Of a stretch of DNA of 47,172 bases, positions 7,557-24,708 are shown in pieces. Source of the DNA: Chloroflexota bacterium (GTDB taxonomy: Bacteria; Chloroflexota; Dehalococcoidia; DSGV01); the NCBI GenBank assembly GCA_021787985.1, contig JAJYLG010000017.1, positions 1 to 47,172 on the forward strand, written 5' to 3'. Numbering within the stretch: the stretch's first letter is position 1; every line of letters starts with the position of its first letter. Position numbers and translations under genes: made by a program. The notes beneath the pieces were generated by a model, which was given only the letters and a program-made list of their open reading frames with translations, was not told the DNA's origin and did not search any database.

Positions 7557-8300
7557 ATGAAGCGCTCCCAATTCCAGCGCGCCCTGGGTCCGGTGGCCCT
7601 GGGAGCGGTCCTCGTGCTGCTGGTCGCCGCGTCCGGTGCAGACGGCAGCCGCGGCGTGCAGCCGGCGGCGAGCGGCACGCCGGCGGCCATCGGGACGTCG
7701 GTCGTCACTCCCCGCCCCGGCCGCGTCGGTCACCCCGACGTCCGCGGCGACGCCCAGAACTTCATCGGGTCGGACGCCTACTGGGACCAGGGCGCGCTGA
7801 TGCACTCCGACTCCGAGACCGCCACCTTGTACCGCCTGCACGGCGCCATCTGGCGCGTCTACATCGGCGACACGGTGAACGGGGTGCGCTGTCCGCGGGT
7901 CGTCGGCGACCTGGGCTACCCGACGAGCGACGAGTTCTGGAACGGGAGTCACGTGCAGCAGAACTTCCAGGTCGGGGAGATCCACTGGTACGGCAGCAAC
8001 GGGTCGGCCTGCTTCGTGCACAAGGCGCCGTACTGCCACGGCGGCTGGCGCGGCCCCGGTCTCCGCAGCCGACGATCGCTGGGCGGCGGGCCTGGCGGTG
8101 GCACGGTGAGTCCGAGTCGCCTGGCGTCCTTGCGCGGAACGACGGCCGGCCGCGTCGGTCAGCGCGCCCGAGCCGGTGAGCGAAGTCGCGGGAGTGCGCG
8201 GACCAGCGATGGCGTCGTGTCGACGGCGGGCTGCTACCCTCGTCGTGATGGAGAACACGCTGCGTCGCCTCGCCCGATTGGTCGCCCGGCCGGACGATGA
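7557..8300 (+). CDS. Secreted LGFP-repeat-like protein with an anomalous C-terminal tail
   Basis: The 247-residue frame begins with an N-terminal signal peptide (MKRSQFQRALGPVALGAVLVLLVAASG). The segment at about residues 110-145, VVGDLGYPTSDEF followed by VQQNFQVGEIHWY, fits an LGFP repeat. Such repeats in other high-GC bacteria sit in cell-wall-associated or secreted proteins. The recognisable protein ends near residue 165 (HKAPYCHGGW). The last 80 residues are Arg/Gly/Ser-rich low-complexity sequence and run 53 bases into the following gene. This suggests that the authentic C-terminus was lost by a frameshift or that the tail is not under selection. GGGAGG lies six bases upstream of the ATG. 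Confidence 0.65.
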   Translation: MKRSQFQRALGPVALGAVLVLLVAASGADGSRGVQPAASGTPAAIGTSVVTPRPGRVGHPDVRGDAQNFIGSDAYWDQGALMHSDSETATLYRLHGAIWRVYIGDTVNGVRCPRVVGDLGYPTSDEFWNGSHVQQNFQVGEIHWYGSNGSACFVHKAPYCHGGWRGPGLRSRRSLGGGPGGGTVSPSRLASLRGTTAGRVGQRARAGERSRGSARTSDGVVSTAGCYPRRDGEHAASPRPIGRPAGR

Positions 8301-9069
8301 GATCGACCTCGCGCAGGGGGCGTTGCTCATCGCGGGAGTGGAGTATCCCGACCTGGACGATGCGCGCTACCTGGATCTGTTGGACCGGCTGGCGATCGAG
8401 GCCGGCGGCCGCGTCCGGGAAGAGGACGGCCCGTTCGGAGCGGTGAACGCGCTCTCCGAATTCCTGTTCGACGACCAGCGCTTCCGTGGCAACGAGGGCG
8501 GTTACTACGACCCGCGGAACAGCTACCTGAACGAGGTGCTCGACCGTCGCCTCGGGATACCGATCACGCTGTCCGTCGTCTATCTGGAGGTGGGCTGGCG
8601 GTTGGGGATGCCGGTCAGCGGGGTGGGCATGCCGGGCCATTTTCTGGTTCGCTATCGCGCGCCGGGCGAGGAGATCATCATCGACCCGTTCCACCGCGGC
8701 ATCATCCTGGCGATGGACGACTGCCGCGAGCTGTTCGGGCGTGCGACCGGCCACCCCACGGCATTCCGTGTGGACCACCTGGCGCGGGTCGGCACCCGCG
8801 AGATCCTGGCCCGCATGCTGAACAACCTGAAGTCGATCTACCTGCGCCAGCACGACCTCGGCCGCGCGCGGACGGTGGTCGACCAGCTACTCGTGCTCCG
8901 CCCGGGCGATCCGGAGCAGTTGCGCGAGCGCGGCGTCCTGCGCTACCGGCTCGGAGACACGGCCGGCGCGCTGGCGGACCTGGAAGCGTACCTTGCCGCC
9001 TCCCCCGGTGCCGCCGACGCCGACGCCGTGCGGCAGCAGGTGGACGAGCTGCGTGACCGACTGGGCTGA
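8248..9069 (+). CDS. SirB1 family protein (transglutaminase-like plus TPR)
   Basis: A 273-residue protein. The N-terminal two thirds carry the SirB1/transglutaminase-like signature YYDPRNSYLNEVLDRRLG, IPITLSVVYLEVGWRLGM and GVGMPGHFLVRY. The C-terminal third has TPR-like helices (ARTVVDQLLVLRPGDPEQLRERGVLRYRLGDTAGALADL). The biochemical role of this family is not established. I chose the ATG at 8248, where MENTLRRLARLV begins, because upstream residues are not conserved in character. No ribosome binding site precedes it, but TACCCT ends eight bases before the ATG. That spacing suits a leaderless transcript. The gene overlaps the tail of the LGFP-like gene and converges on the DinB-like gene. 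Confidence 0.85.
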   Translation: MENTLRRLARLVARPDDEIDLAQGALLIAGVEYPDLDDARYLDLLDRLAIEAGGRVREEDGPFGAVNALSEFLFDDQRFRGNEGGYYDPRNSYLNEVLDRRLGIPITLSVVYLEVGWRLGMPVSGVGMPGHFLVRYRAPGEEIIIDPFHRGIILAMDDCRELFGRATGHPTAFRVDHLARVGTREILARMLNNLKSIYLRQHDLGRARTVVDQLLVLRPGDPEQLRERGVLRYRLGDTAGALADLEAYLAASPGAADADAVRQQVDELRDRLG

Positions 9070-9132
9070 CCTGCCCACGGACCGGGGACGGAATCGGCAG
9101 AGGGCGCGGATGTGGGGCGGTGCAGAGCCGCG

Positions 9133-9660
9133 TCAGGCGCGGCCGTATCTGGCGCGCTGCTCCGGCTGCTTCGCCTCCACCTGCTCCCACGCGCGGTCGT
9201 AGATCTGCGGCGGGTCCCAGCCGTTGAGCCCGGCGTAGGTGTCGAGCTGACTGCGGTGGTGGATGTCGTGCTCGGCCATGAGCAGCAGGATGCGCCACCC
9301 GGAGATGCTGCCGTCCGAATCGATCAACGGGATCTTGCGCTCCAGCCATGCGTCCGGCGTGCCGGCGAGCGCGCCGCGGAGCCGCTCGTAGCTGTCCTGG
9401 AGCGCCGGCAGCCAGCGGTCGCGCGACGACACGTCCGGCGCGGCGGGGGAGATCCAGCCCTCGCCGCGGTAGGCGCTGACGAAGTAGAGCCGGGCCCCGG
9501 CGATATGTCCGACGATGGTGTTGACCGGCCACGCCTTCTCGCCCGCGCCCGCGGGAGGGCGCCAGCCGTCGGCCTCGGGCGGCAGCGCGCCGATGTCGCG
9601 CAGGGCGCGCCGCTGGACACCGTCGAAGTAGCTGAGAAACGCGTCGATCGAGCGGAACAT
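9133..9660 (-). CDS. DinB family protein
   Basis: A 175-residue four-helix-bundle protein of the DinB/YfiT superfamily. The metal-binding histidines are visible: H52 in NTIVGHIAGARLYF, and H131, H134 and H135 in LLMAEHDIHHRSQLDTYAG. The HxxxH arrangement in the third helix is the usual metal site. Family members include thiol-dependent S-transferases (bacillithiol or mycothiol) and many uncharacterised proteins. The C-terminal APPQIYDRAWEQVEAKQ-like helix is complete. It is monocistronic, convergent with the SirB1-like gene and divergent from the response regulator, with which it shares a 155-base spacer. The ATG has a GAGGG about seven bases upstream. Confidence 0.85.
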   Translation of the reverse strand: MFRSIDAFLSYFDGVQRRALRDIGALPPEADGWRPPAGAGEKAWPVNTIVGHIAGARLYFVSAYRGEGWISPAAPDVSSRDRWLPALQDSYERLRGALAGTPDAWLERKIPLIDSDGSISGWRILLLMAEHDIHHRSQLDTYAGLNGWDPPQIYDRAWEQVEAKQPEQRARYGRA

Positions 9661-9815
9661 GTCGTGCCTCCCTCGCCTGCCTGCCCAGAGCCTAGCCGAA
9701 GCGCGGCCGATGTGTCCGGCCCACGGTGAAACGTCATGCGGCGCGCTTCATCTGAGCTTAATCGTCTCGCGCTATGCTCATTCTTGAGAAGATCCACACG
9801 AGCCGCGGCGGGACG

Positions 9816-10496
9816 ATGCGCATTCTCCTGGTGGAGGACGAGAAGCGAATCGCGGATTTCATCCGCAAGGGGCTGTCCGAGAACGGCTACGCGGTGGACG
9901 TGGCCTGCGACGGCGAGGAGGCCCTGGACTGGGCCGCGGTGGCCGAGCTCGACATCATCGTGCTCGATGTGCTGCTGCCGGGGCGTGACGGCCTCGATGT
10001 CTGCCGCGAGCTGCGCCGCCGGGGATCGCACGTCCCGGTCCTGATGCTCACCGCCCGCGACGCCATTGAGGACCGCGTGCGCGGGTTGGACAGCGGCGCC
10101 GACGACTATCTCGTCAAGCCGTTCGCCTTCGCCGAGCTGCTCGCCCGCCTGCGCGCGCTCGCCCGCAGGGAGCGTTCGGTGCTGGGGACGCATCTGCGGG
10201 TGGGCGACCTGGTGCTGGACACCGCGAGCAGGCAGGTGTCGCGCCAGGGCCAGTCGATCGCGCTGACGAGCAAGGAGTTCTCCCTGCTCGAGTACCTGCT
10301 GCGGCATCCGAACCAGGTGCTGACGCGGACGATGATCGCCGAGCATGTCTGGAACTACGATTTCGACAGCTCCAGCAATGTCATCGACGTGCACGTGCGC
10401 AACCTGCGTCGCAAGATCGACGATCCCTTCGCGGCCAGGCTGATCCACACCGTCCGGGGCGCCGGGTACCTGCTCTCAGACCGGCAGCCGGAGTAG
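9816..10496 (+). CDS. OmpR/PhoB family response regulator
   Basis: A 226-residue two-domain regulator. In the receiver domain the acidic pocket is E7-D8, the phosphoacceptor is D51 in DIIVLDVLLPGRDG, the switch threonine lies in MLTARD, and K101 is in DYLVKPF. The C-terminal winged-helix DNA-binding domain (about residues 125-222) includes LTSKEFSLLEYLLRHPNQVL and NVIDVHVRNLRRKID. The kinase gene follows after three bases, so the two form one operon. I chose the ATG at 9816 because residues before it are non-conserved, and GGCGGGACG precedes it. The target genes are unknown; the small secreted protein gene downstream is one candidate. Confidence 0.93.
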   Translation: MRILLVEDEKRIADFIRKGLSENGYAVDVACDGEEALDWAAVAELDIIVLDVLLPGRDGLDVCRELRRRGSHVPVLMLTARDAIEDRVRGLDSGADDYLVKPFAFAELLARLRALARRERSVLGTHLRVGDLVLDTASRQVSRQGQSIALTSKEFSLLEYLLRHPNQVLTRTMIAEHVWNYDFDSSSNVIDVHVRNLRRKIDDPFAARLIHTVRGAGYLLSDRQPE

Positions 10497-13759: not shown

Positions 13760-15304
13760 TCAGGCCTCGGTGGGGGTGTGCTGAGCCAGCCACTCGCGCA
13801 CCTGGAAGCGGAGGACCTTCCCGCTGGCGTTGCGCGGGATCTCCTCGATGAAGAACACTTGCCGTGGCCGTTTGAAGTCGGGCAGGAGGCGGCTCTGCAG
13901 ACAGTGCCGGTCGACCTCCGCCTCGTCCAGCGACGCGTCGGCGCGCGCGACGCAGGCGACTACCACCTGCCCCCATCGCTCGTGGGGCAGACCCACGACC
14001 GCCGCGTCGCGGACCTTGGGGTGTGCGAGCAGCACGTCCTCCACCTCCGCCGGGTGGATGTTCTCCCCGCCGCTGATGATCATGTCGTCGACGCGGCCCG
14101 TGATGAACAGGTCCCCCTCGGCGTCCTGGTAGGCGACGTCGCCGGTAAAGTACCAACCGTCCCGCACCGCGCGCGCGGTCTCCTGCGGTTTGTGCCAGTA
14201 CCCGGCGAAGGCCTCGTCCGCGCGGATGTCGGCGATGAGCTCACCCTCCCGCCCCGGCTCCACCAGGTCCTCGGGTCCGCCTCCGAGGCGCACGATCCGT
14301 GTGCGGCTCTGGACCCCCATGCGGAGCGCACCGGGTTTGCGGCCGGCGTTACGGAAGTAGAAGCCGACGTACGCCTCGGTGTTGCCGTAGATATGTGTCA
14401 GGTTGGCGGTCATTTGCGCCACAACTCTTTGCAGCAGCTCGCGCGCCATGGGCGCGCCCGCATACACCAGGTCGCGCACGCTGCGGACGTCGCGCGCGGT
14501 GAAGTCCGGTTGCGACAGCAGCATGTGGAAGTGGGTTGGCGAGGCGAACAGGAACGTGAGGTGTTCCCGCTCGATGAGGTCCAGCACGGACGACGGCACG
14601 AAGTCGCGCACGGCGTAGTACGTGGCGTTCAGGTACAGGCTGGGCAGCAGGACGCCGTGCAGTCCGATGGTGTGGTAGAGCGGCATGGCGCCCACGAACC
14701 GATCTCCTTCGCCGTGGCGCAGGCCATGGGCCAGCATCACGGTGAACATCCGGGCCAGGCCCGTGCGGTGGGTGATGGGCACGCCCTTCGGCTGCCCGGT
14801 GGTACCGGACGTGTAGAGGATGACGGAGAGCGCGGAGTCGTCCACCGTCACCCCCGGGTCGGTGTCAGGGCTATCCTCGACGAGCTGCGCAAGGCTGACG
14901 ACGCCGGCGGGCGGCCGGCCGCCGTCGAACAGCCGCAGGGGGACAGGCGCGCCACGTGTGGCGGCCAGCACCGTCTCGCACGTCAGCGGCTCGAAGACGA
15001 CTGCGCACGGCTCGGCGTCCTGGATATGGTAGGCGACGCCACCTTCTTTCAGCCGTGGGTTGAACGGAACCGCCACGGCGCCGAGCTTCTGCAGCGCCAG
15101 GAACAGCGTGGCATGCGGTTCGCCGGTCCGCAGGCCGATGAGCACGCGGTCCCCCGGCCGCACGCCCCGCGCACGCAGCCCGTTGGCCAGCCGGTCCACC
15201 CGGCGGCGCCACTCCGCGTACGTGAGCCGCTGGTCGCCGTCCACGATGGCGAGTCGGTCCGGCGTGCGCTCCACCACGAAATCGAACATGGTCCCAAGGT
15301 CCAT
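13760..15304 (-). CDS. AMP-dependent acyl-CoA synthetase (FadD-like)
   Basis: A 514-residue adenylate-forming ligase that would convert a carboxylic acid, ATP and CoA to acyl-CoA, AMP and PPi. The P-loop-like motif YTSGTTGQPKGV is at residues 164-175, the YGNTEAY segment matches the A5 motif, WYFTGDVAYQDAEG the A7 motif, and GRVDDMIISGGENIHPAEVE the hinge motif. The catalytic lysine is K496 in RNASGKVLRF. All motifs are intact. GGAGGAG lies six bases upstream of the ATG. It is downstream of the PaaK-like gene and its small partner on the same strand. The substrate is unknown; medium-chain or aromatic acids are typical for this subgroup. Confidence 0.92.
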   Translation of the reverse strand: MDLGTMFDFVVERTPDRLAIVDGDQRLTYAEWRRRVDRLANGLRARGVRPGDRVLIGLRTGEPHATLFLALQKLGAVAVPFNPRLKEGGVAYHIQDAEPCAVVFEPLTCETVLAATRGAPVPLRLFDGGRPPAGVVSLAQLVEDSPDTDPGVTVDDSALSVILYTSGTTGQPKGVPITHRTGLARMFTVMLAHGLRHGEGDRFVGAMPLYHTIGLHGVLLPSLYLNATYYAVRDFVPSSVLDLIEREHLTFLFASPTHFHMLLSQPDFTARDVRSVRDLVYAGAPMARELLQRVVAQMTANLTHIYGNTEAYVGFYFRNAGRKPGALRMGVQSRTRIVRLGGGPEDLVEPGREGELIADIRADEAFAGYWHKPQETARAVRDGWYFTGDVAYQDAEGDLFITGRVDDMIISGGENIHPAEVEDVLLAHPKVRDAAVVGLPHERWGQVVVACVARADASLDEAEVDRHCLQSRLLPDFKRPRQVFFIEEIPRNASGKVLRFQVREWLAQHTPTEA

Positions 15305-15485: not shown

Positions 15486-15704
15486 TTAGCCTTCCCCGGC
15501 ATGTGATCGCGCCGATCCCGAGAGCCCGTATTCGCTCGGCCACAGGGGCGCTTCTTCCGGGCTGACGGAGCCCTCGACCACCAGCGCCGCCTCTGCCATC
15601 AGCCTGAGGTAGCTGGCGATCGCAGGCGTCAGCGCCTCACGGTAGAGCTCGTCGATGCGTTGCCGCAGCAGAGCGATCTCGGACCTGAACTCCGGTTGAT
15701 TCAT
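15486..15704 (-). CDS. Small protein translationally coupled to the PaaK-like gene
   Basis: A 72-residue protein, mostly alpha-helical by eye (FRSEIALLRQRIDELYREAL, then IASYLRLMAEAALVVEG), ending in a short Pro/Ser/Gly-rich tail. Its ATG overlaps the TGA of the PaaK-like gene as ATGA (15701-15704), so it is translated by coupling and is unlikely to be chance. The first helix has a heptad-like Leu/Ile pattern and could pack against a partner. It may be an accessory of the ligase. I do not recognise a family. Confidence 0.6.
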   Translation of the reverse strand: MNQPEFRSEIALLRQRIDELYREALTPAIASYLRLMAEAALVVEGSVSPEEAPLWPSEYGLSGSARSHAGEG

Positions 15705-17113
15705 CCCTCAGCCTCCCCTCGGTGGTCGAACACGCGGCGCGACTTGAGCTCGTAGCGAGGCAGCGCGCCGGGAGGCAGCACCTCAACGCCGAACGACACA
15801 CCGACGCGGTAGCGCAGCTCGTGCGCGAGCCGTTGGCGCAGCGGCCCGTGCTCGGTGTGCGGAACGTCGGGTTGTGCCTCTACGCGGATGCTGATGGCGT
15901 CGAGTCCGCTGTCGCGGGTGATGTGCAGCTCGTAGTACGGTGACGCGCCCGCTTGTCCGCCGAGGATGCTCTGGACAGCGGTGGTGTAGACGTTGACGCC
16001 GCGGATGGTGACCATCTGGTCGGTGCGACCGAGGACGCCGCCATCGAAGAAGGCGAGGGTCCAGCCACAGCCGTGGTCAGGGTTTCGCTGGAGACGGACG
16101 AGGTCGTGGGTCCGGTACTTGATCAGCGGCTGAGCGAGGCGGAACGAGGTCACGATGTGCTCTCCGACCTGCGCTTCATCCGCGACGGGCGCCAGCGACC
16201 CGGGGTCGACAACGTAGGAATGGGCGTACCGCTCGAGGACGTGCGTGCCGTTCGCCTTTCCCTGGTCGACCGCCGCGCACTCACAGGCGGCGAAGAGTGG
16301 CTCGCTGATCCCGTACATGTCGCAGATGCGCGGGCGACCCCAACCCGCGCGGAGCGCCTCGCGCACCGCCGGAACGCTCGGGCCGACCTCCCCCGCCATG
16401 GTCAGAAAGCGGACGCCGGCCGCGGCGAGGTCCAGTCGCTCGGCGCGGGCTACTTCCGCCATGTGCAAGAGGTAGGTCGGGGTGGCGATCACCGCGTCGG
16501 GGCGCAGCTCCAAGATCTGCCTGACACGCGCCTTGGTGTCGAGACCACCAGCGGGAATGATCATCAGCCCCATGCGTTCCGCCGCGAACAGCGCGGTCCA
16601 GAAGCCGACGTAGGTGCCGAAGTTGAAGGCAAAGTAGATCGAGTCGCCGGGCCGCATGCCTGCGTCCCACCATCCGTATGCCCATACCTGCTGGGCAATG
16701 GCCAGGCTGTCGTAGCTGCTGAAGACCTCGTTCAGCGGGACGCCGGTGGTACCGGACGTGCGGTAGCACAGCGAGCGCATCGCACGCGAGATCGACTCGA
16801 AGCCGAACTGTAATCCTTCCGCCGGTTGGTCGGCCATCACGTCGGGCTTGTCGGTGAACGGCACGCGGTGGTAGAAGTCGTCCCAGGTCTTGACGTCCTC
16901 GGGCTTTACTCCTGCACGGTCGTAGAGGCGGCGGTAGAACGGAACTCGCGCGTAGGCGTACTCCATGATCTGACGGATGCGGCGCAGGTGCAGCGCATCG
17001 AGACGCGCTCGGTCCATGCGCTGCCAGTGCGCGTCCCAATACCTGGCGGCCCGCCAGCTCTGGGCGGTGGCGGTGGCGGTGGCAACGGCGACAGGCTCGG
17101 CCTCGTCGTTCAT
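15701..17113 (-). CDS. Phenylacetate-CoA ligase family (PaaK-like) adenylate-forming enzyme
   Basis: A 470-residue ligase of the PaaK family. The N-terminus has the hallmark RRIRQIMEYAYARVPFYRRLYD, followed by the phosphate-binding loop YRTSGTTGVPLNEVFSS, the ICDMYGISEPLFAAC segment, the IKYRTHDLVRL motif, and the GRTDQMVTIRGVNVYTTAVQ motif. The C-terminal lysine lies in RYELKSRRVFDHRGE, which differs from the usual PRTxGKxxRVxD by lacking the glycine before it. Members activate phenylacetate or other aryl/alkyl acids as CoA thioesters, so the exact acid is uncertain. I chose the ATG at 17113, after GGGAGGAG. It is first in a minus-strand unit with the small coupled protein and the FadD-like gene, and divergent from the BcrB-like unit. 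Confidence 0.88.
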   Translation of the reverse strand: MNDEAEPVAVATATATAQSWRAARYWDAHWQRMDRARLDALHLRRIRQIMEYAYARVPFYRRLYDRAGVKPEDVKTWDDFYHRVPFTDKPDVMADQPAEGLQFGFESISRAMRSLCYRTSGTTGVPLNEVFSSYDSLAIAQQVWAYGWWDAGMRPGDSIYFAFNFGTYVGFWTALFAAERMGLMIIPAGGLDTKARVRQILELRPDAVIATPTYLLHMAEVARAERLDLAAAGVRFLTMAGEVGPSVPAVREALRAGWGRPRICDMYGISEPLFAACECAAVDQGKANGTHVLERYAHSYVVDPGSLAPVADEAQVGEHIVTSFRLAQPLIKYRTHDLVRLQRNPDHGCGWTLAFFDGGVLGRTDQMVTIRGVNVYTTAVQSILGGQAGASPYYELHITRDSGLDAISIRVEAQPDVPHTEHGPLRQRLAHELRYRVGVSFGVEVLPPGALPRYELKSRRVFDHRGEAEG

Positions 17114-17192
17114 GCGTGGTCGTCTCTCCTCCCACGTGCCCCTGGTCTCCCACACGTACCCGGCAGGGTAGAGGACTGCGGAGGCGACAAGG

Positions 17193-17210
17193 ATGATGCA
17201 GCTTCATCAT
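17193..17210. promoter_or_regulatory. 18-bp near-perfect palindrome, operator candidate
   Basis: ATGATGCAGCTTCATCAT reads the same on both strands except at one symmetric pair (C/T). It lies between the divergent PaaK-like and BcrB-like genes and touches the -35 of a plus-strand promoter candidate. No regulator gene is adjacent. Confidence 0.5.
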
Positions 17211-17237
17211 TGCCACGGAGGAGGACTGGGCTAGGTT
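17210..17237 (+). promoter_or_regulatory. Sigma-70-like promoter candidate for the BcrB-like operon
   Basis: TTGCCA (17210-17215) and TAGGTT (17232-17237) are separated by 16 bases. The start codon is about 140 bases downstream. The overlap with the palindrome at 17193-17210 would allow a bound regulator to block the -35. Confidence 0.4.
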
Positions 17238-17374
17238 GGACGAGCGGCGTACGGTTAGCGAACGGCCGCGACCCAGGCGTACTCCGGTTCGCCACGGCCG
17301 AGCCGGTGCCGGTGGTCGCGGGCGTTCGCCAGGGAGATTCTGTCCGTCGAGCGGGCCGAGAAGGGGAGGGGGAG

Positions 17375-18670
17375 ATGCAGGTTCAAGCGCAGCCGGCCGA
17401 TCTCGTCGGCCGGGGCGTCAGGGAAAGCGGGGTCCTGATCCGGCAGTGGTTCGAGCGGCTGACCCAGGCGCAGGAGCGGGGCGAGCCCACCGCGTACGTG
17501 TTCGTGGGGGGCAACCTGATCGAAGTGCTGCGAGCGTTCGACATGCCGGTGGCGTTTCCGGAGGTGTACTCGCTGCAGACGGCGGTGCGGCGCGTGGCGC
17601 ACGAGTACATCGACGTGGCGGAGGACTGGGGCTGCTCGCCCGACATCTGTGGCTACGTGAAGGCGGATGTGGGGATTCAGCTTCGGGATGGTCAGCATCC
17701 CATGGGGCGGATTCCACGCCCCAGCCTTGGGGTGGCGTCGAACTTCTGCAATACGTTCATCAAGTGGGCCGAGATCTGGGAACGCCTGTACCATACTCCG
17801 GTCTTCGTTCTGGATATACCGGGAGCCCGGGGCGACCCAGCGGCCGCGGGCTCGCGCGATACCGAGGCCGACCGCCGCTACCTGGAGCAGCAGATTCGCG
17901 AGCTCATCGCGCTGTGCGAGGAGGTCACGGGCAGGAAGTTCGACATCGACAAGCTGCGGGAAGCGATGCACCACAGCAACCTGATGGCGAGCTCCTATCG
18001 GCGGATCCTGGAGCTGAACCGCCATGTGCCCGCCCCGTTCGGGGCGCTGGTGGAGGGGACTGCTTATCTGGGCGTGGCCAACGTGCTGCGAGGCACGCCC
18101 GAGGGCAGCGCCTACTTCCAAAGGGCGGTCGAGGAGCTGGAGTACAAGGTTGCCAACGGCATCGGCACGCTGCCCGAGGAGAAGTACCGACTGATCTTCA
18201 TAGGCGTGCCCTGTTACCCGATCTACCGGCGGTTCTTCGGGCTCTTCGCCCAACACGGTGGGGTGTTCGTCACATCCGCTTACATGCGGTTGGCCTCGGG
18301 CGGTTGGTGCTTCGACTTCCGCTACGACCTCGATCGGCCGATCGAGAGCCTGGCCGACGGCCTGCTGCGAACGAACGCTGCGGCCATGGGCGAGATATTC
18401 TTCCTCGACGAGCCGGCGGTGGAGCAAGCGCGGGAGTACCAGGTGGACGGGATCGTCTTCCACCCCATCAAGAGCTGCCGCACCTTCTCCGCCGGCATGG
18501 CCGACGCGCGCCAGACCGTCATGCAGCGGGCCGACCTTATGACCCTGTACATCGAGTCGGACCACATGGACCGGCGGGTGGTCTCGGAGGCGCAGCTCAG
18601 GAACCGCGTCGACGCGTTCTTCGAGGGACTGGCCACCCGCAAGCTGCAGGCAGAGGGGACCGCGAAGTGA
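17375..18670 (+). CDS. Benzoyl-CoA reductase/2-hydroxyglutaryl-CoA dehydratase subunit family protein (BcrB/HgdB-like)
   Basis: A 431-residue protein of the 2-hydroxyacyl-CoA dehydratase/benzoyl-CoA reductase superfamily, whose members hold a [4Fe-4S] cluster that accepts electrons from an ATP-driven activator. Family traits are the cysteines C87 and C92 in EDWGCSPDICGYVK, C125 in VASNFCNTF, C280 in FIGVPCYPIYRRF, and C368 in the near-invariant end HPIKSCRTFS. Known enzymes need two such subunits plus a BadF/HgdC activator. Only one subunit is encoded here and no activator is seen in the window. It may be a homo-oligomer, use an LLM partner, or pair with genes elsewhere. The ATG follows AAGGGGAGGGGGAG. 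It begins a unit with an LLM oxidoreductase and a crotonase. Confidence 0.8.
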   Translation: MQVQAQPADLVGRGVRESGVLIRQWFERLTQAQERGEPTAYVFVGGNLIEVLRAFDMPVAFPEVYSLQTAVRRVAHEYIDVAEDWGCSPDICGYVKADVGIQLRDGQHPMGRIPRPSLGVASNFCNTFIKWAEIWERLYHTPVFVLDIPGARGDPAAAGSRDTEADRRYLEQQIRELIALCEEVTGRKFDIDKLREAMHHSNLMASSYRRILELNRHVPAPFGALVEGTAYLGVANVLRGTPEGSAYFQRAVEELEYKVANGIGTLPEEKYRLIFIGVPCYPIYRRFFGLFAQHGGVFVTSAYMRLASGGWCFDFRYDLDRPIESLADGLLRTNAAAMGEIFFLDEPAVEQAREYQVDGIVFHPIKSCRTFSAGMADARQTVMQRADLMTLYIESDHMDRRVVSEAQLRNRVDAFFEGLATRKLQAEGTAK

Positions 18671-18744
18671 GGCCGATAACCTGTGGGGCGGGTGCGGGCG
18701 GCACATCGCGGTAGTGGCTGCCGGTGGGGCGGCGGAGACGATCG

Positions 18745-19764
18745 ATGAGTGCGAAGATCGGCATTCTGTCAGGCCCTCCCTCTCTGGAGGATGTTCGATG
18801 GCTCGCCGTTCGCGCCGAGGCTGCTGGCTTCGACTCGGTATGGGCGGGCGAGTACTTCAGCCGCAACGTGTTCACGAACCTCGCCGCGATGGCCCTCTCC
18901 ACCCGTCGCATAATGATTGGCTCCGCCATCTGCTACGCCTTCATCCGCTCGCCCACCCAACTCGCCATGGCGAGCGCGGACGTGGACGAGATCAGCGGCG
19001 GGCGACTTCTGCTCGGTCTGGGGCCCGGTACGCGCGCGCAGAACGAGGACTGGTATGGCGTCCCCTTCGAACACCCGGGCCCCAAGCTGAAGGAGGTGGT
19101 CGCCATCGCCCGGGGGCTGTGGGGCCACACGGGAGGACCCTTCCGCTTCGAAGGCCGATTTCACAAGCTGTCGATTCCGAACTTCGTGCGTCACAACCAA
19201 GCCCGACCCCAGGTCCCCGTGTACGTCGGGGCCACCAATCCGTACATGCTGGGCGTGGTTGGCCAAATCGGCGACGGGCTCCTGGGCCATCCCAGCTACA
19301 CGCGGGGCTACTACCGTGAGGTGGTGCTGCCAGCCCTGCAAGAAGGCATCAGGAAAGCGGGCAGGCAGCCGGGGGATGTACAGCGGGCGCTCCTCGTCGT
19401 CACCGTAGTGGACCGCGACGAGGAACGGGCGCGGCGGGAAGCCGCCCGTTGGCTCTCCTTCTACTTGGTGGCGCGGCCTTTCCACTCCATCTTGGACCAC
19501 CACGGCTGGCAGGAGGAGAAGGCCGCGATCGTCGACGCGTTCCGCCCGCCGGATCAGGCGAAGCTGACGGCCGCCATCAGCGAGCGCATGTGGCGCGAGG
19601 TGCTGGCCCTGGTCGGGACCCCTGACCAGGTCCGTCGGCAGTGGCAGGAGCTCTCACCGTTGGCCGACCACGTGATCCTGCTTGCCCCGGCCCCGTACGG
19701 CGGGCTCGATTTCCCGGACTACCGGAAGAACTACGAGCTTATTCTCGAGACGTTTGGCAGATGA
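18745..19764 (+). CDS. LLM class flavin-dependent oxidoreductase (probably F420-dependent)
   Basis: A 339-residue TIM-barrel protein. Family blocks are AVRAEAAGFDSVWAGEYF, the RRIMIGSAICYAFIRSPTQL strand-helix, and the coenzyme-binding GGRLLLGLGPGTRAQNEDWYG. PQVPVYVGATNPYMLGVVGQIGDGLL is the usual late-barrel segment, as in methylene-H4MPT reductase-like and F420-dependent enzymes. It acts in the cytoplasm; the substrate is unknown. I chose the ATG at 18745 (MSAKIGILSGPP), preceded by GGCGGAGA; a GTG 21 bases earlier would add an unlikely Arg-rich tail. It lies 74 bases after the BcrB-like gene and 36 bases before a crotonase, so the three are probably one transcript. It could move electrons to or from the CoA intermediate. 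Confidence 0.87.
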   Translation: MSAKIGILSGPPSLEDVRWLAVRAEAAGFDSVWAGEYFSRNVFTNLAAMALSTRRIMIGSAICYAFIRSPTQLAMASADVDEISGGRLLLGLGPGTRAQNEDWYGVPFEHPGPKLKEVVAIARGLWGHTGGPFRFEGRFHKLSIPNFVRHNQARPQVPVYVGATNPYMLGVVGQIGDGLLGHPSYTRGYYREVVLPALQEGIRKAGRQPGDVQRALLVVTVVDRDEERARREAARWLSFYLVARPFHSILDHHGWQEEKAAIVDAFRPPDQAKLTAAISERMWREVLALVGTPDQVRRQWQELSPLADHVILLAPAPYGGLDFPDYRKNYELILETFGR

Positions 19765-19800
19765 CGCCGACCCGGCGTCGGAGAGGGGCGTGACCCGCGG

Positions 19801-20592
19801 GTGCCCAGCTTGTTCGAACACATTACGTATGCCACCGGCGACGGCGTAGCCACCATCACCCTCGATCGCCCCCGACACTTCAACGCGATGTCCATGGCGG
19901 GCATGCGCGAGATCATCGACGCCCTCGACCAGGCGGGGAATGACCGCCAGGTGAGGGTTACGGTCCTGACCGCGACGGGTGACGTCTTCTGCGCGGGAGC
20001 AGACATCAAGGAACTCCCTGACCCGGTGACGCCCCTGGTCGGTTACGAGATGGTGGGCCTCTACCTGAAGGCGGTTGAGACGATGCGCGCCCTGAGCCAG
20101 CCGGTGGTGGCCAGAGTCAACGGCCCCGCGCACGGCGGTGGCTGCTGTTTGGCCCTTGGTGCTGACCTTCGTGTGGCCTCCGACAACGCGAGCTTCTCTT
20201 TGCCGTTCGTCAACCTGGGGCTCAGCGGCGCTGACATGGCCGCCACCTACCTGCTCCCGCGCTTGATCGGCTACGGGCGCGCCTGCGAGCTGCTCATGCT
20301 CGGGGAGTCCATCGATGCCCAGGAAGCACAACGGATCGGCCTGGTGAATCGCGTCGTCCCCCGTGAGGCCCTGGACGCCGCCACCCAGTCCATCGTTGCG
20401 CGGTTGCGCACACGGCCGCCCGTGGGTCTCGGGTTCACCAAGCGGGCTCTGCAAGGGAGCCTCGACCGGGACTGGCGCGGCCAGTTGGAGCATGAGCAGC
20501 TTGCACAGACTCTCTGCCTGCTGACAGAGGACTTCGCCGAGGGAAGGCAGGCCTTCGTGGAGAAGCGAACAGCGAACTTCAAGGGGCGCTGA
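19801..20592 (+). CDS. Crotonase-fold protein lacking the hydratase glutamates
   Basis: A 263-residue crotonase with a GTG start. Oxyanion-hole segments are intact: DVFCAGADIKEL (residues 61-72) and VNGPAHGGGCCLALGADLRVA (split around 107-126). The two catalytic glutamates of enoyl-CoA hydratase are missing: the GGGCE position is C116 and the FGQPE position is F136 (FSLPF). An aspartate, D145 in LGLSGADMAATYLLPRLIG, lies where dienoyl-CoA isomerase has its catalytic Asp. It may isomerise, or process a dienoyl or ring-derived CoA ester, rather than hydrate. A GAGAGGGG is found about a dozen bases before the start. It is the third gene of the BcrB-like unit. Confidence 0.88.
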   Translation: MPSLFEHITYATGDGVATITLDRPRHFNAMSMAGMREIIDALDQAGNDRQVRVTVLTATGDVFCAGADIKELPDPVTPLVGYEMVGLYLKAVETMRALSQPVVARVNGPAHGGGCCLALGADLRVASDNASFSLPFVNLGLSGADMAATYLLPRLIGYGRACELLMLGESIDAQEAQRIGLVNRVVPREALDAATQSIVARLRTRPPVGLGFTKRALQGSLDRDWRGQLEHEQLAQTLCLLTEDFAEGRQAFVEKRTANFKGR

Positions 20593-20679
20593 GCCCCGCG
20601 GCCGTGCTGGAGCAGGCTTGTCGTGCCACCACGGCCGCCTGCGCGGCGGCGCCAAGTCAATGGCGGCGATTTGAATCGC

Positions 20680-20691
20680 GGGGGGGGGGGG
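20680..20691 (+). repeat. Homopolymer of 12 G
   Basis: The tract follows TTGAATCGC and precedes CCGAGG, between genes. It is long enough to slip in replication or in sequencing, so its exact length is uncertain. Confidence 0.8.
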
Positions 20692-20938
20692 CCGAGGCTC
20701 CCCGGCTTGGCTTTCGGCGACGATCGGAGAGCGGCGCTGCGGTGCATGGCATGCTGGCGAGCCCGGGGCCTGCGACCCGCTGTTTGGATCGCCAAGAGCG
20801 AACGTCCCCGGCGGTCGTCTCCCCGCGCGTCTTCGGCCGCCACGTGCGGTAGATCCTGCGTCACGACCTGCGCGCACTGCGAGGCAAGTAGAGGGAACAT
20901 AATAGACTACTCAGGCCAAGGGCACTGTGAACCGGGCA

Positions 20939-20950
20939 GGGAAATTTCCC
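20939..20950. promoter_or_regulatory. Perfect palindrome GGGAAATTTCCC upstream of the -35 element
   Basis: The 12-bp palindrome ends seven bases before the TTGACA -35 of the molybdoenzyme promoter. That is where an activator would bind. The protein is unknown. Confidence 0.45.
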
Positions 20951-20957
20951 ATGCCAC

Positions 20958-20985
20958 TTGACACAGGGGCGATTGTGGCTTAAAT
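20958..20985 (+). promoter_or_regulatory. Sigma-70-type promoter of the molybdoenzyme operon
   Basis: A consensus TTGACA (20958-20963) is followed, after 16 bases, by TTAAAT (20980-20985). Transcription should begin near 20992, giving a leader of about 100 bases before the GTG start at 21093. Confidence 0.65.
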
Positions 20986-20990
20986 CACAA
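20973..20990. promoter_or_regulatory. CRP/FNR-family operator candidate over the -10 element
   Basis: TTGTG-N8-CACAA is a perfect five-base inverted repeat with a central TTAA. It also fits the CRP-like pattern TGTGn-N6-TCACA (here TGTGG, six bases, TCACA). It covers the -10, so a bound regulator would probably repress. No CRP/FNR gene is in the window. Confidence 0.6.
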
Positions 20991-21062
20991 GCGGGAGGAG
21001 GGCCCTGCCGGGGCCTTCCGCAAAGGTGGCGGACAGCCCCGAGGAGGGCCGTCCGCCATTTT
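20991..21062 (+). promoter_or_regulatory. Structured leader with terminator-like hairpin, candidate attenuator
   Basis: Hairpin 1 pairs GCGGGAGG (20991-20998) with CCTTCCGC (21014-21021; one G-U pair). Hairpin 2 pairs TGGCGGAC (21027-21034) with GTCCGCCA (21051-21058), has an inner GCCC/GGGC stem, and ends in ATTTTG, like a weak intrinsic terminator. A third pairing, GGGGC (21010-21014) with GCCCC (21036-21040) plus CCGC with GCGG, would exclude both. That is the layout of an attenuator or riboswitch. I cannot match it to a known class by eye. Confidence 0.45.
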
Positions 21063-21092
21063 GCGTGTGGGGCACGAGAAGGAGGACACGAT

Positions 21093-23291
21093 GTGAAGGC
21101 GATACGCGAAGGACGGCTCACACGCCGCAGGTTCATCGGCGCCGCGAGCACCGCGATCGCCGTCGCTGGAGTCGGCGGAGCGCTCGGCGAGGTCGAGCGA
21201 ACCGCGTCCCTCGTTGGGACGGCATCCCCAGCCGCGGCGGCAAGCCCGAAGGAGACGCTCGTTCCATCCCTGTGCCAGATGTGCGCGATACGCTGCGGGA
21301 TCCTTGCCCACGTGGTCGATGGCAAGGTGACCCGCATCACCGGCAACCCCGATGACCCGCTCAGCCAAGGGCGGCTGTGCGCTCGCGGGCAGGCGGGCAT
21401 GGGCATGCTCTACGACCCGGACCGGGTGCGGCAGCCGATGCGGCGCGATGCCTCGGGCAAGTTCGTCCCGGTCTCGTGGGAGCAGGCGTTCCAGGAGATC
21501 GGTAAGAAGCTGAACGAGATCAAGGAGAAACACGGGCCGGAGTCGCTGGTCTGGCTGACACATCCGGAGCAGCTCGCCGGATGGGAGCAGCGCTTCATGG
21601 ACGCGTTCGGCTCGCCCAACTGGACGGGCCATGCTCCCACCTGTTACTCGTCGCGGGTGGTCGGTTTCGCGACGACGTACGGTCTGGTTCCGGCGGCGGA
21701 CTACGCCAACACGCGCTACTACGTCTCGTTCGGTCGCAGCATCATCGACGGGATCAGCAACCCGCAGGTACAGGCGCTGATGGCGGCGCGCATGGCGGGG
21801 GCTCGCATCGTGGTGATCGACCCGCGGCTCAGCGACTTCGCCAGCATCGCGGACGAGTGGCTGGCCATCCGCCCAGGCACCGATCTGGCGCTGGCGCTGG
21901 CGATGATCCACGTGATCCTGCGCGACAAGCTCTACGACGCGTCGGCGTTGGCCGAGCAGACCGTGGGGCTGGACCAGTTGGAGCAGGGGGTCGCGCAGTA
22001 TACCCCGCAGTGGGCGCAGGGGATCACCGGAGTCGACGCGAAGACGATCGAGCGGCTGGCGAAAGGACTGGCGGCCGCCGCCCCTGCCGCCGTGATCGAG
22101 CCGGGGTGGCACGGTCCCCAGGGCGGCATGTACTGGAACAGCGTGGGCCTTTCCCGGGCGACCGCCTGCCTGAACGCGCTGCTGGGGAACCTGGGGAAGA
22201 AGGGCGGACTGACCGTGCCGCCCGCGTCTCCGTTGTCCCCGGCCAAGATCTTCAAACCGGCGCCAGCGGCCAGCAAGCTTTCCCGCTGGGACGGTGCGGG
22301 CGGTTCGGAGTGGCCGCTGGCCAAGGGCCTGGGCCGCTGCCAAGAGATCCCGAAGGTCATCGCCTCGGGCGAGCCGTACCCGATCCACGCGGTGATCGCC
22401 TGCCACACCAATCCGGTGCGCGCGTACCCGGACGGAGACCGGCTTGTCGCCGCGTTCAAGAAGCTCGACCTGGTGGTCGTGATCGACCATCAGATGAGCG
22501 ACACGGCGTGGAACACCGCGCACTACGTGCTGCCCGAGTCGACCTACCTCGAACGATTCGGCACCGTGGAAAGCCGGGGTAACAAGCTGGCCCTGGCGCA
22601 GCCGGCAGTGCCGCCGCTGTACGACACCCTGGGCGAGGACGAGATCATCCGGCGGCTCGCCGCCGCATGCGGCTTCCCCCAGTACTTCAGCTTCACGATC
22701 GAGGACTACAACAATGCCCTGCTGGAGCCGCTCGGACTGACGCAGGCGGACCTGCGCGCAGGGGAGCGGGAGTTCAAGCCAAGTCCACCCAAGCCCGCGT
22801 TCCCGTTGCCGACGGCGTCGAAGAAGGTTGAGCTCGCCTCCTCCGCGCTGGCGAAGGCCGGTGGGCCGGCCGTTCCCGTCTGGGAGCCGCCGCTGGTGGC
22901 ACCGGGCCCAGGGCAGTTCCGGCTGATCCAGGGGCATGTGTCGGTGCATACCCACACCACGACTCAGAACAATTCCTATCTCCATGCGCTGATGCCGGAG
23001 AACCGCCTCTGGATTCATCCGGACCGGGCGAAAGCGCTGGGCGTCCGCGATGGCGACCTTGTCGAGGTCAAGTCGGAGGTCGCGAGTCAGCGCGTGAAAG
23101 CTCGTGTCACGCAGGAGATCGTTCCGGAAGCGGTCTTCCTCGCGCACGGATTCGGCTGCGTCTCGCCGACACAGCGACTGAACTATGGGAAGGGGGCGTC
23201 CGACGCGGCGCTCGTGCCGATTCGCTCGGCGCCGTTCTCGGGCGCGGCAGCGCAATGCGAAACCATCGTCACGGTGCAGAAGGCGAGGTGA
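21093..23291 (+). CDS. Molybdopterin oxidoreductase catalytic subunit (PsrA/PhsA/TtrA-like), Tat-exported
   Basis: A 732-residue molybdenum/tungsten bis-MGD enzyme. The N-terminus has a twin-arginine signal (RLTRRRFIGAAS) followed by a hydrophobic stretch. The [4Fe-4S] site is C61, C64, C68 and C96 (CQMCAIRC ... LCARG). C184 in GHAPTCYSSR is where Psr/Phs-type enzymes have their Mo-ligating cysteine. The C-terminal molybdopterin-guanine-binding domain ends with VFLAHGFGCVSP and LNYGKGASDAAL. Likely substrates are polysulfide, thiosulfate, tetrathionate or another oxyanion, at the outer face of the membrane; direction and substrate are unproven. It starts with GTG, seven bases after AAGGAGG; an ATG two bases earlier runs straight into TGA. 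It heads an operon with PsrB- and PsrC-like genes. Confidence 0.9.
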   Translation: MKAIREGRLTRRRFIGAASTAIAVAGVGGALGEVERTASLVGTASPAAAASPKETLVPSLCQMCAIRCGILAHVVDGKVTRITGNPDDPLSQGRLCARGQAGMGMLYDPDRVRQPMRRDASGKFVPVSWEQAFQEIGKKLNEIKEKHGPESLVWLTHPEQLAGWEQRFMDAFGSPNWTGHAPTCYSSRVVGFATTYGLVPAADYANTRYYVSFGRSIIDGISNPQVQALMAARMAGARIVVIDPRLSDFASIADEWLAIRPGTDLALALAMIHVILRDKLYDASALAEQTVGLDQLEQGVAQYTPQWAQGITGVDAKTIERLAKGLAAAAPAAVIEPGWHGPQGGMYWNSVGLSRATACLNALLGNLGKKGGLTVPPASPLSPAKIFKPAPAASKLSRWDGAGGSEWPLAKGLGRCQEIPKVIASGEPYPIHAVIACHTNPVRAYPDGDRLVAAFKKLDLVVVIDHQMSDTAWNTAHYVLPESTYLERFGTVESRGNKLALAQPAVPPLYDTLGEDEIIRRLAAACGFPQYFSFTIEDYNNALLEPLGLTQADLRAGEREFKPSPPKPAFPLPTASKKVELASSALAKAGGPAVPVWEPPLVAPGPGQFRLIQGHVSVHTHTTTQNNSYLHALMPENRLWIHPDRAKALGVRDGDLVEVKSEVASQRVKARVTQEIVPEAVFLAHGFGCVSPTQRLNYGKGASDAALVPIRSAPFSGAAAQCETIVTVQKAR

Positions 23292-23295
23292 TGTG

Positions 23296-23838
23296 ATGGC
23301 CCGCTACGGAATGGTCATCGATCTCAGGGTATGTGCGCAGTGCCGAGGATGCACCGTCGCCTGTCAAGCCGTGAATCAGCTTCCGCCGGACGAGCGCTGG
23401 GTCGAGCTGCGCAGCACCAGCGTGGGCAGCTTCCCCTCCGTGCGGCGCATCACGGCGCCGGTGCAATGCATGCAGTGCGGGAATCCTCCCTGCGCTGCCG
23501 TGTGCCCCACCGGCGCCACGCACAAGGATTCCAAGACCGGCGTCGTGCTGGTGGACGCGGGACGCTGCGTCGGCTGTCGCTACTGCCAGGTGGCCTGCCC
23601 CTATCAGGCACGGGTGTTCGAAGAGAAGACCGGCGTCGTGGCGAAGTGCATCTTCTGCCTTCCCCTGGTGAAGCAGGGGCAGCAGCCCGCCTGCGTCAGT
23701 CAGTGCATCGGTCACGCGCGAACCTTCGGTGACCTCGACGATCCGAACAGCGAGGTCAACCGCGCGCGCAGAGACCTCAAGGCGATGGCGGTCCGGGCCG
23801 ACCTGGGCACGGACCCAAGTATCTTCTACGCGAGCTAG
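23296..23838 (+). CDS. 4Fe-4S ferredoxin electron-transfer subunit (PsrB/NrfC/TtrB-like)
   Basis: A 180-residue iron-sulfur protein with 16 cysteines arranged for four [4Fe-4S] clusters: C13-C16-C19-C23 (CAQCRGCTVAC), CMQCGNPPCAAVCP, CVGCRYCQVACP, and CIFC ... CVSQC. This is the beta subunit of complex-iron-sulfur molybdoenzymes, passing electrons between the membrane anchor and the catalytic subunit. It lacks its own signal peptide, as expected, because it is co-exported by the Tat signal of the catalytic partner. The ATG is four bases after the stop of the alpha-subunit gene, and AGGTGAT precedes it. A 9-base gap separates it from the NrfD-like gene. Confidence 0.93.
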   Translation: MARYGMVIDLRVCAQCRGCTVACQAVNQLPPDERWVELRSTSVGSFPSVRRITAPVQCMQCGNPPCAAVCPTGATHKDSKTGVVLVDAGRCVGCRYCQVACPYQARVFEEKTGVVAKCIFCLPLVKQGQQPACVSQCIGHARTFGDLDDPNSEVNRARRDLKAMAVRADLGTDPSIFYAS

Positions 23839-23847
23839 GAGGAGGAA

Positions 23848-24708
23848 ATGGCTCAAACTGTCTGGGGACTTCCGGTGATCCTCTACCTGTTCCTCGGAGG
23901 AATGGGAGCGGGCGCATATCTTACCGCCCGCTGGGCCGAGCGGTATCCGGACTCCTCCGCGGTGGTACGCGTGGGCCGCTGGCTGAGCGGCCCGCTGGTC
24001 GCGGTCGGCACCGTTCTGCTCGTCTTTGACCTGGGAGCGGGCAAGACCCATCCCTGGCGCATTCTCTGGCTCTACACTGACCTGCACTCAGTGATGACCT
24101 GGGGTACCTGGCTGCTCACCATGTTCGTCCCGGTTGCGTTGGTGCATGCTTTCGCCCCGGCGCAATGGACCGAGCGCCAGCGCTGGCTGCACGTCGTGGG
24201 AGTGACGCTGGCCATCGGTGTGGCGCTCTACACCGGGGTGCTGCTGGCAGTGCTCAAGGCCATCCCCCTGTGGAACAATGGGCTGCTTCCGGTGCTGTTC
24301 GTCATCTCTGCGGTGTCGACCGGGGTCGCCGCCACCGTACTGCCGGCGGTGCTGATCGACCCACGGGTGTTGCGGACGGCGGAAGGGTTCCGCAGCATCC
24401 ACCTTGCGGTCGTCGTGAGCGAGCTGCTCGTCCTGACGCTGTTCCTGTTCTTCACGGCGGAGGGATCTGCGGCGGGCCGGCTCTCGTACGACATGCTCAC
24501 CACCGGGTCGCTCGCGGCCGCGTTCTGGATCGGGATCGTGCTGGTCGGGCTGGTCTTGCCATTGCTGCTGATGGCGCTGGGCGCGGGCTTCCGCTCGTTC
24601 ACGCTGCAGCGGAACGCGGTGGTGATCGAAGCGCTGGCGGTGCTGGTCGGCGGTTTCTTCCTGCGCTACGTGATCGTGCACGCGGGGATCCCGCAGGTGC
24701 TGTTCTGA
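23848..24708 (+). CDS. NrfD/PsrC-like membrane anchor, quinone-interacting subunit
   Basis: A 286-residue integral membrane protein with about eight hydrophobic helices and an N-terminal VWGLPVILYLFLGGMGAGAYL segment typical of NrfD/PsrC proteins. This family anchors molybdoenzymes and binds menaquinone without haem. Loop residues HPWRILWLYTDLHSVMTWGTW and LKAIPLWNN between helices are also characteristic. GGAGGAGG lies two bases before the ATG. It completes a three-subunit complex with the two upstream genes. A hairpin follows at 24746-24777. Because the quinone site is on the outer face in PsrC, it could reduce or oxidise quinone depending on the substrate. Confidence 0.92.
   Translation: MAQTVWGLPVILYLFLGGMGAGAYLTARWAERYPDSSAVVRVGRWLSGPLVAVGTVLLVFDLGAGKTHPWRILWLYTDLHSVMTWGTWLLTMFVPVALVHAFAPAQWTERQRWLHVVGVTLAIGVALYTGVLLAVLKAIPLWNNGLLPVLFVISAVSTGVAATVLPAVLIDPRVLRTAEGFRSIHLAVVVSELLVLTLFLFFTAEGSAAGRLSYDMLTTGSLAAAFWIGIVLVGLVLPLLLMALGAGFRSFTLQRNAVVIEALAVLVGGFFLRYVIVHAGIPQVLF

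Follow-up and report, generated by a model that had tools for sequence, protein, structure and literature searches.

What does a BcrB/HgdB-like subunit do when its gene is followed by genes for an LLM-class flavin/F420-type oxidoreductase and a crotonase and is divergent from two CoA ligases? Open reading frames and family matches confirm this arrangement as described in the first-pass annotation (Table 1), on a 47-kb contig (the window, at its full length) of a draft assembly of 3.50 Mb (189 contigs, 95.6% complete), which its nearest B relatives place in the Chloroflexota. The genes had been proposed to constitute a complete small pathway, in which an acid is converted to its CoA ester and subsequently reduced or dehydrated with another electron source such as F420. 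Analysis of the entire genome suggests a different solution, namely that the partner subunits are encoded once elsewhere and that the microbe swaps only the active-site subunit, thereby widening the range of acids attacked.

The lone active-site subunit and its neighbours

The lone subunit (hereafter B'), the LLM oxidoreductase, the crotonase and the two ligases are full-length proteins with family matches far beyond chance, and the start of B' at 17375 is backed by alignment to the copy on contig C145 of the same genome (MQVQAQPADLVGR / MNAPTEAADLVGR). Gaps of 74 bases between B' and the LLM gene and of 36 bases between the LLM and crotonase genes make the three compatible with an operon; promoter and terminator consensus scans at the locus found none. 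The ligase pair is separated from the divergent B' by 219 bases. The flanks of B' are intact and remnants of the genes for the C, A or D subunits are absent from the 47-kb window; on its own contig, B' is indeed an orphan.

The genes in the interval 15701-24708 of the window have a GC3 of 0.83-0.875 (the value of the PaaK-like ligase left out), most flanking genes one of 0.88-0.95, which is a hint of a separate history of this block. Downstream of the crotonase and on the same strand (21108-24708), a TAT-type PhsA/PsrA-like molybdopterin oxidoreductase, an NrfC/DsrO-like Fe-S protein and a polytopic, NrfD-like-looking membrane protein are encoded, which could be a respiratory module tied to the B' cluster.

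Table 1. Coordinates of the genes and loci discussed in the text
Feature	Contig or genome	Coordinates	Strand	Profile match
FadD-like second acyl-CoA synthetase, AMP-binding and AMP-forming	Window	13760..15304	-	profile matches
PaaK-like CoA ligase, AMP-forming, divergent from B'	Window	15701..17155	-	TIGR02155, below cut-off
B' (BcrB/HgdB-like, BcrB/MbdO-type active-site subunit, second copy)	Window	17375..18670	+	HGD-D, 213 bits
LLM-class flavin/F420-type oxidoreductase	Window	18745..19764	+	Bac_luciferase, 222 bits
Crotonase-fold protein	Window	19801..20592	+	ECH_1, 194 bits
Reductase subunit C	C145	19250-20413
Reductase subunit B	C145	20434-21738
Reductase subunit A	C145	21745-22557
Reductase subunit D	C145	22561-23436
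PaaK-like ligase paralogue	C145	32631-34052
L053, B alone	Chloroflexota MAG (Anaerolineales SJ338)	8959-10299
L055, C-B without A/D	Chloroflexota MAG	7773-10242

The closest solved relative of B' is MbdO (9g87_A; E 2.6e-138, about 50-51% identity), which assigns it to the BcrB/MbdO-type active-site subunits, and its predicted structure (pLDDT 85, pTM 0.88) resembles this protein with a TM of 0.93. Because neither B' (224 bits) nor the B subunit on C145 (206 bits) reaches the cut-off of the BcrB equivalog TIGR02260 (486.6 bits), the appropriate label is MBR-type class I reductase and not Thauera aromatica-type BcrB. B' also stays below the cut-off of the HadB/HgdA dehydratase model NF052455 (137.8 of 750 bits).

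In BzdNO, the B-equivalent O subunit has its benzoyl-CoA binding site at a [4Fe-4S] cluster with Cys95, Cys128, Cys380 and, as fourth ligand, water, beside Glu65; the C-equivalent N subunit houses an [8Fe-9S] double cubane, through which electrons are passed on from the ATP-driven pair (PMC11971306). C78, C111, C354 and E49 of B' (P0001 numbering; 14 is to be added for numbering from 17375) align with these residues as modelled [4Fe-4S]-OH2 ligands and catalytic glutamate, and are invariant in B', MbdO and 81 relatives, so that B' has the expected three-Cys active site. Among the four cluster ligands previously proposed, C92, C125 and C368 correspond to these three cysteines, whereas C87 (C73 in P0001 numbering) is rejected, as the position is tyrosine in 81/81 relatives. 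A B' homodimer carrying its own double cubane was set aside, since B' possesses the three-Cys site of BzdO/MbdO.

The LLM enzyme stays below the curated cut-offs of its nearest models (TIGR03617, 185 of 278 bits; Mer, 154 of 349) and is thus not assigned to a known F420-dependent LLM family. Adjacent F420 biosynthesis genes on contig C175, coding for CofD (307.5 bits, cut-off 257.5) and CofC (156.8 bits, cut-off 105), identify the organism as one with F420, and the LLM enzyme may consequently use F420 for a later, easier step. Its closest paralogue (46% identity), on contig C1, is divergent to another crotonase (G000:C1:3269-5246, L167), which represents a second LLM/crotonase neighbourhood in the genome. 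The crotonase beside B' was rightly described as modified: with Cys and Phe in place of both catalytic glutamates of enoyl-CoA hydratases it is unlikely to be a classical hydratase, or the dienoyl-CoA hydratase, and more probably acts as an isomerase, hydrolase or lyase.

A single set of partner subunits on contig C145

Exactly three genes in the genome match the HGD-D profile, B' and two on contig C145, and the BcrAD_BadFG profile finds two strong genes, both on C145, in addition to one weak partial match below the cut-off. The genome thus encodes one C, two B and one A/D pair. The C145 genes are arranged as a C-B-A-D operon, with a PaaX-like regulator before and a hemerythrin-like protein and a BadI/MenB-like crotonase after it, which by homology is a complete MBR-type (3-methylbenzoyl-CoA-reductase) class I benzoyl-CoA reductase, an ATP-driven enzyme that breaks down aromatic rings in the absence of oxygen; the best solved match of its C subunit is MbdN (E 2.3e-163). 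A C-type subunit and an A/D ATPase pair are consequently available, on C145 and not at the B' locus. Genome-wide, B' is therefore not an orphan. The proposal had depended on there being no second subunit and no BadF/HgdC activator elsewhere; both are present on C145, and a complete stand-alone system is rejected by the whole-genome counts of HGD-D and BadF-type genes.

B' is 73% identical to the C145 B subunit and shows only distant similarity to C145 C. Phylogenetic analysis of 84 B proteins makes B' and C145 B sisters with a support of 96, which becomes 100 without the two long-branch rows. The PaaK-like ligase in turn is 56% identical, and sister in its tree (support 97/96), to a ligase encoded about 9 kb downstream of the C145 reductase operon. 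Both of the likely acid-contacting parts, B' and the ligase, are thus most closely related to genes of the C145 cluster, and C, A and D were apparently not copied alongside them. These sister relationships make the activation of an acid to its CoA ester and its subsequent reduction, as proposed in the first-pass annotation, plausible, but not as a complete pathway standing by itself.

Compared with C145 B, B' carries three modelled ring- or cluster-side changes, G31 (S in C145 B), F114 (Y) and F357 (V), with the ring-side placement of position 31 being less certain as it was mapped through the HadB alignment only. Position 114, the BzdO His131 position, is F in B' and MbdO and Y in 81/81 relatives; position 357, equivalent to BzdO Leu383, is F in B' and V or T in 80/81 relatives. 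The changes are hints of a different substrate and no proof of it, as the two proteins differ at 27% of all positions and the rate of ring-side change is not clearly above this overall divergence. The pairwise dN/dS of about 0.20-0.25 indicates that B' is kept by purifying selection.

Gene order and copy number in other genomes

When each species was represented by one genome, the scan yielded 318 relatives, and neighbourhoods were compared for the best 80. Seventy-six of these 80 loci have the arrangement C-B-A-D and two more are truncated at the end of a contig; L055 has C-B but no A/D, and L053 contains B alone. A B gene adjoining LLM and crotonase genes occurs in 0 of the best 80 of the 318 related loci, nor is there a second instance of the B'-LLM-crotonase order in 343 genomes of the class; conservation was assessed at class level and among B relatives, with no genome from the same family or order. 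Conservation of the gene order, on which the proposal had also relied, is accordingly not found.

L053 and L055 are sisters and share as neighbours Xdh-type genes, an acyl-CoA dehydrogenase, a hydroxyacyl-CoA dehydrogenase, a transketolase-like gene and XdhC. The L055 locus has C between XdhC and B; in L053, B comes straight after XdhC, with no remnant of C between the two genes. The L053 genome, SJ338, encodes one C, two B and one A/D pair beside C/B; elsewhere it encodes a fused double BadF-type protein, which might serve as an activator. The L055 genome is a less clean case, as it has further A-type and HGD-D fragments. A single origin of all satellite B genes was rejected (p-AU 8e-5). The copy pattern of SJ338 is also that of the window genome, and the two reached it independently.

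MBR-type C-B-A-D operons (L042-L121) are widespread in uncultured Chloroflexota, Acidobacteriota, Gemmatimonadota, Planctomycetota, Actinomycetota and marine gammaproteobacteria. After D, about half of the best 80 loci, across phyla, encode a protein of roughly 100 residues (Y-SLG-EVLL-PL, two cysteines; for example L007 15280-15678) without Pfam match. In L080 (Tectomicrobia), a single region contains several C-like and A-like matches, which points to reductase-subunit genes that are either present in tandem copies or split. The literature, as far as it was covered, contained no report of a stand-alone BcrB-type subunit.

A proposed shared electron-delivery platform

The analysis itself shows homology, copy numbers, sister relationships, conserved ligands, a predicted fold and purifying selection. 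The reading that explains these best, to which we assign a probability of roughly 0.6, is that B' serves the single MBR-type class I reductase of the genome as an alternative active-site subunit, forming a hybrid C-B'-A-D enzyme supplied by the ligase next to B'. Beyond the observations, we infer that the subunit is exchanged in trans, that a ring is reduced, that the substrate differs and that the LLM enzyme and the crotonase take part. The CoA ligase beside B' would activate a second aromatic or cyclic acid, and the resulting CoA ester would be bound by B' at the aqua-[4Fe-4S] cluster. The electron route would be that of the standard enzyme, starting at reduced ferredoxin and running through the A/D pair, driven by ATP, and the C subunit with its double cubane, these three subunits being encoded on C145, to B'. 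The hybrid would thus draw on the one electron-delivery platform that the two B subunits share. Further processing of the reduced CoA ester would fall to the LLM enzyme and the glutamate-less crotonase. The independent parallel in SJ338 counts for this reading, while the B'-LLM-crotonase order, seen once, counts against it.

B' might instead be a plain isoenzyme, which joins the same C and A/D and acts on the same substrate from its own promoter under other conditions. Its high identity to C145 B and intact catalytic residues agree with this, as does its different locus, which implies separate regulation; however, B' sits with its own diverged ligase and is changed at positions 114 and 357, where the relatives are almost uniform, so that a mere isoenzyme seems unlikely. 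We regard as rather improbable that B' is no longer a reductase subunit and either is drifting or has taken on another function, for instance in sensing or binding CoA esters. Although it has no partner nearby and its 24 departures from strongly conserved columns exceed those of most relatives, C145 B shows 20 such departures within a full operon; moreover, ligands and catalytic glutamate of B' are intact, dN/dS is low and the predicted model is full-length and confident. Improbable to much the same extent is a second complete reductase, with its C, A and D lost or missing from the assembly. With 189 contigs and 95.6% completeness a second C/A/D could indeed be missing, but C, A and D are absent from the 47 kb around B' despite intact flanks, they are immediately adjacent to B in 76 of the best 80 relatives, and SJ338 has the same numbers of C and B.

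The adjacent LLM gene together with CofC and CofD would fit a B' that works without C and the ATP-driven activator on electrons from the F420/flavin LLM enzyme. Complete partners are present in the genome, though, and the LLM gene is not conserved beside B elsewhere. With a potential of about -340 mV, F420 falls far short of what ring reduction demands. Class I enzymes need about -622 mV and ATP coupling for it, and B-type subunits receive their electrons via the C-type [8Fe-9S] cluster (PMC11971306). An F420-driven, ATP-free reduction, which the evidence does not support, is highly improbable, and equally so is the variant in which the LLM-fed active site of B' dispenses with double-cubane C and ATP by acting on an easier substrate, for example a conjugated, partly reduced CoA ester.

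If B' does borrow C, A and D, class I benzoyl-CoA reductases would be modular, with the costly electron-delivery parts kept single and the substrate-binding subunit and ligase duplicated for new aromatic acids. Counts of C-B-A-D operons in metagenomes would then underestimate the substrate range, and swapping the active-site subunit would offer a way to engineer enzymatic Birch reductions. The two independent cases, the window genome and SJ338, make the modular idea testable.

Among known enzymes, the MBR-type class I 3-methylbenzoyl-CoA reductase MbdONPQ of Thauera chlorobenzoica (PDB 9g87, 9gai) has the same ligands and fold as B'. All its subunits are united in one permanent four-part enzyme. 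The second O/B-type subunit described here, by contrast, has no other reductase subunit encoded beside it, its gene neighbours being those of a ligase, an LLM enzyme and a crotonase. BzdNO of Aromatoleum sp. CIB (PDB 8s02), of the BZD-type class I, shares fold, three-Cys aqua-[4Fe-4S] site and catalytic glutamate with B', and its catalytic and ATP dimers are thought to associate only transiently, which is a likeness to the arrangement proposed here; nevertheless, identity is about 21%, and His131 of BzdO is Phe in B', as in MbdO, and Tyr in the rest of the family. The 2-hydroxyisocaproyl-CoA dehydratase HadBC/HadI (PDB 3o3m) belongs to the same superfamily, has the same cluster site and a separate activator, and one activator can serve several dehydratases. 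Its similarity to B' is 24%, far below the HadB model cut-off, and unlike a reductase HadBC/HadI recycles the electron and does not consume it.
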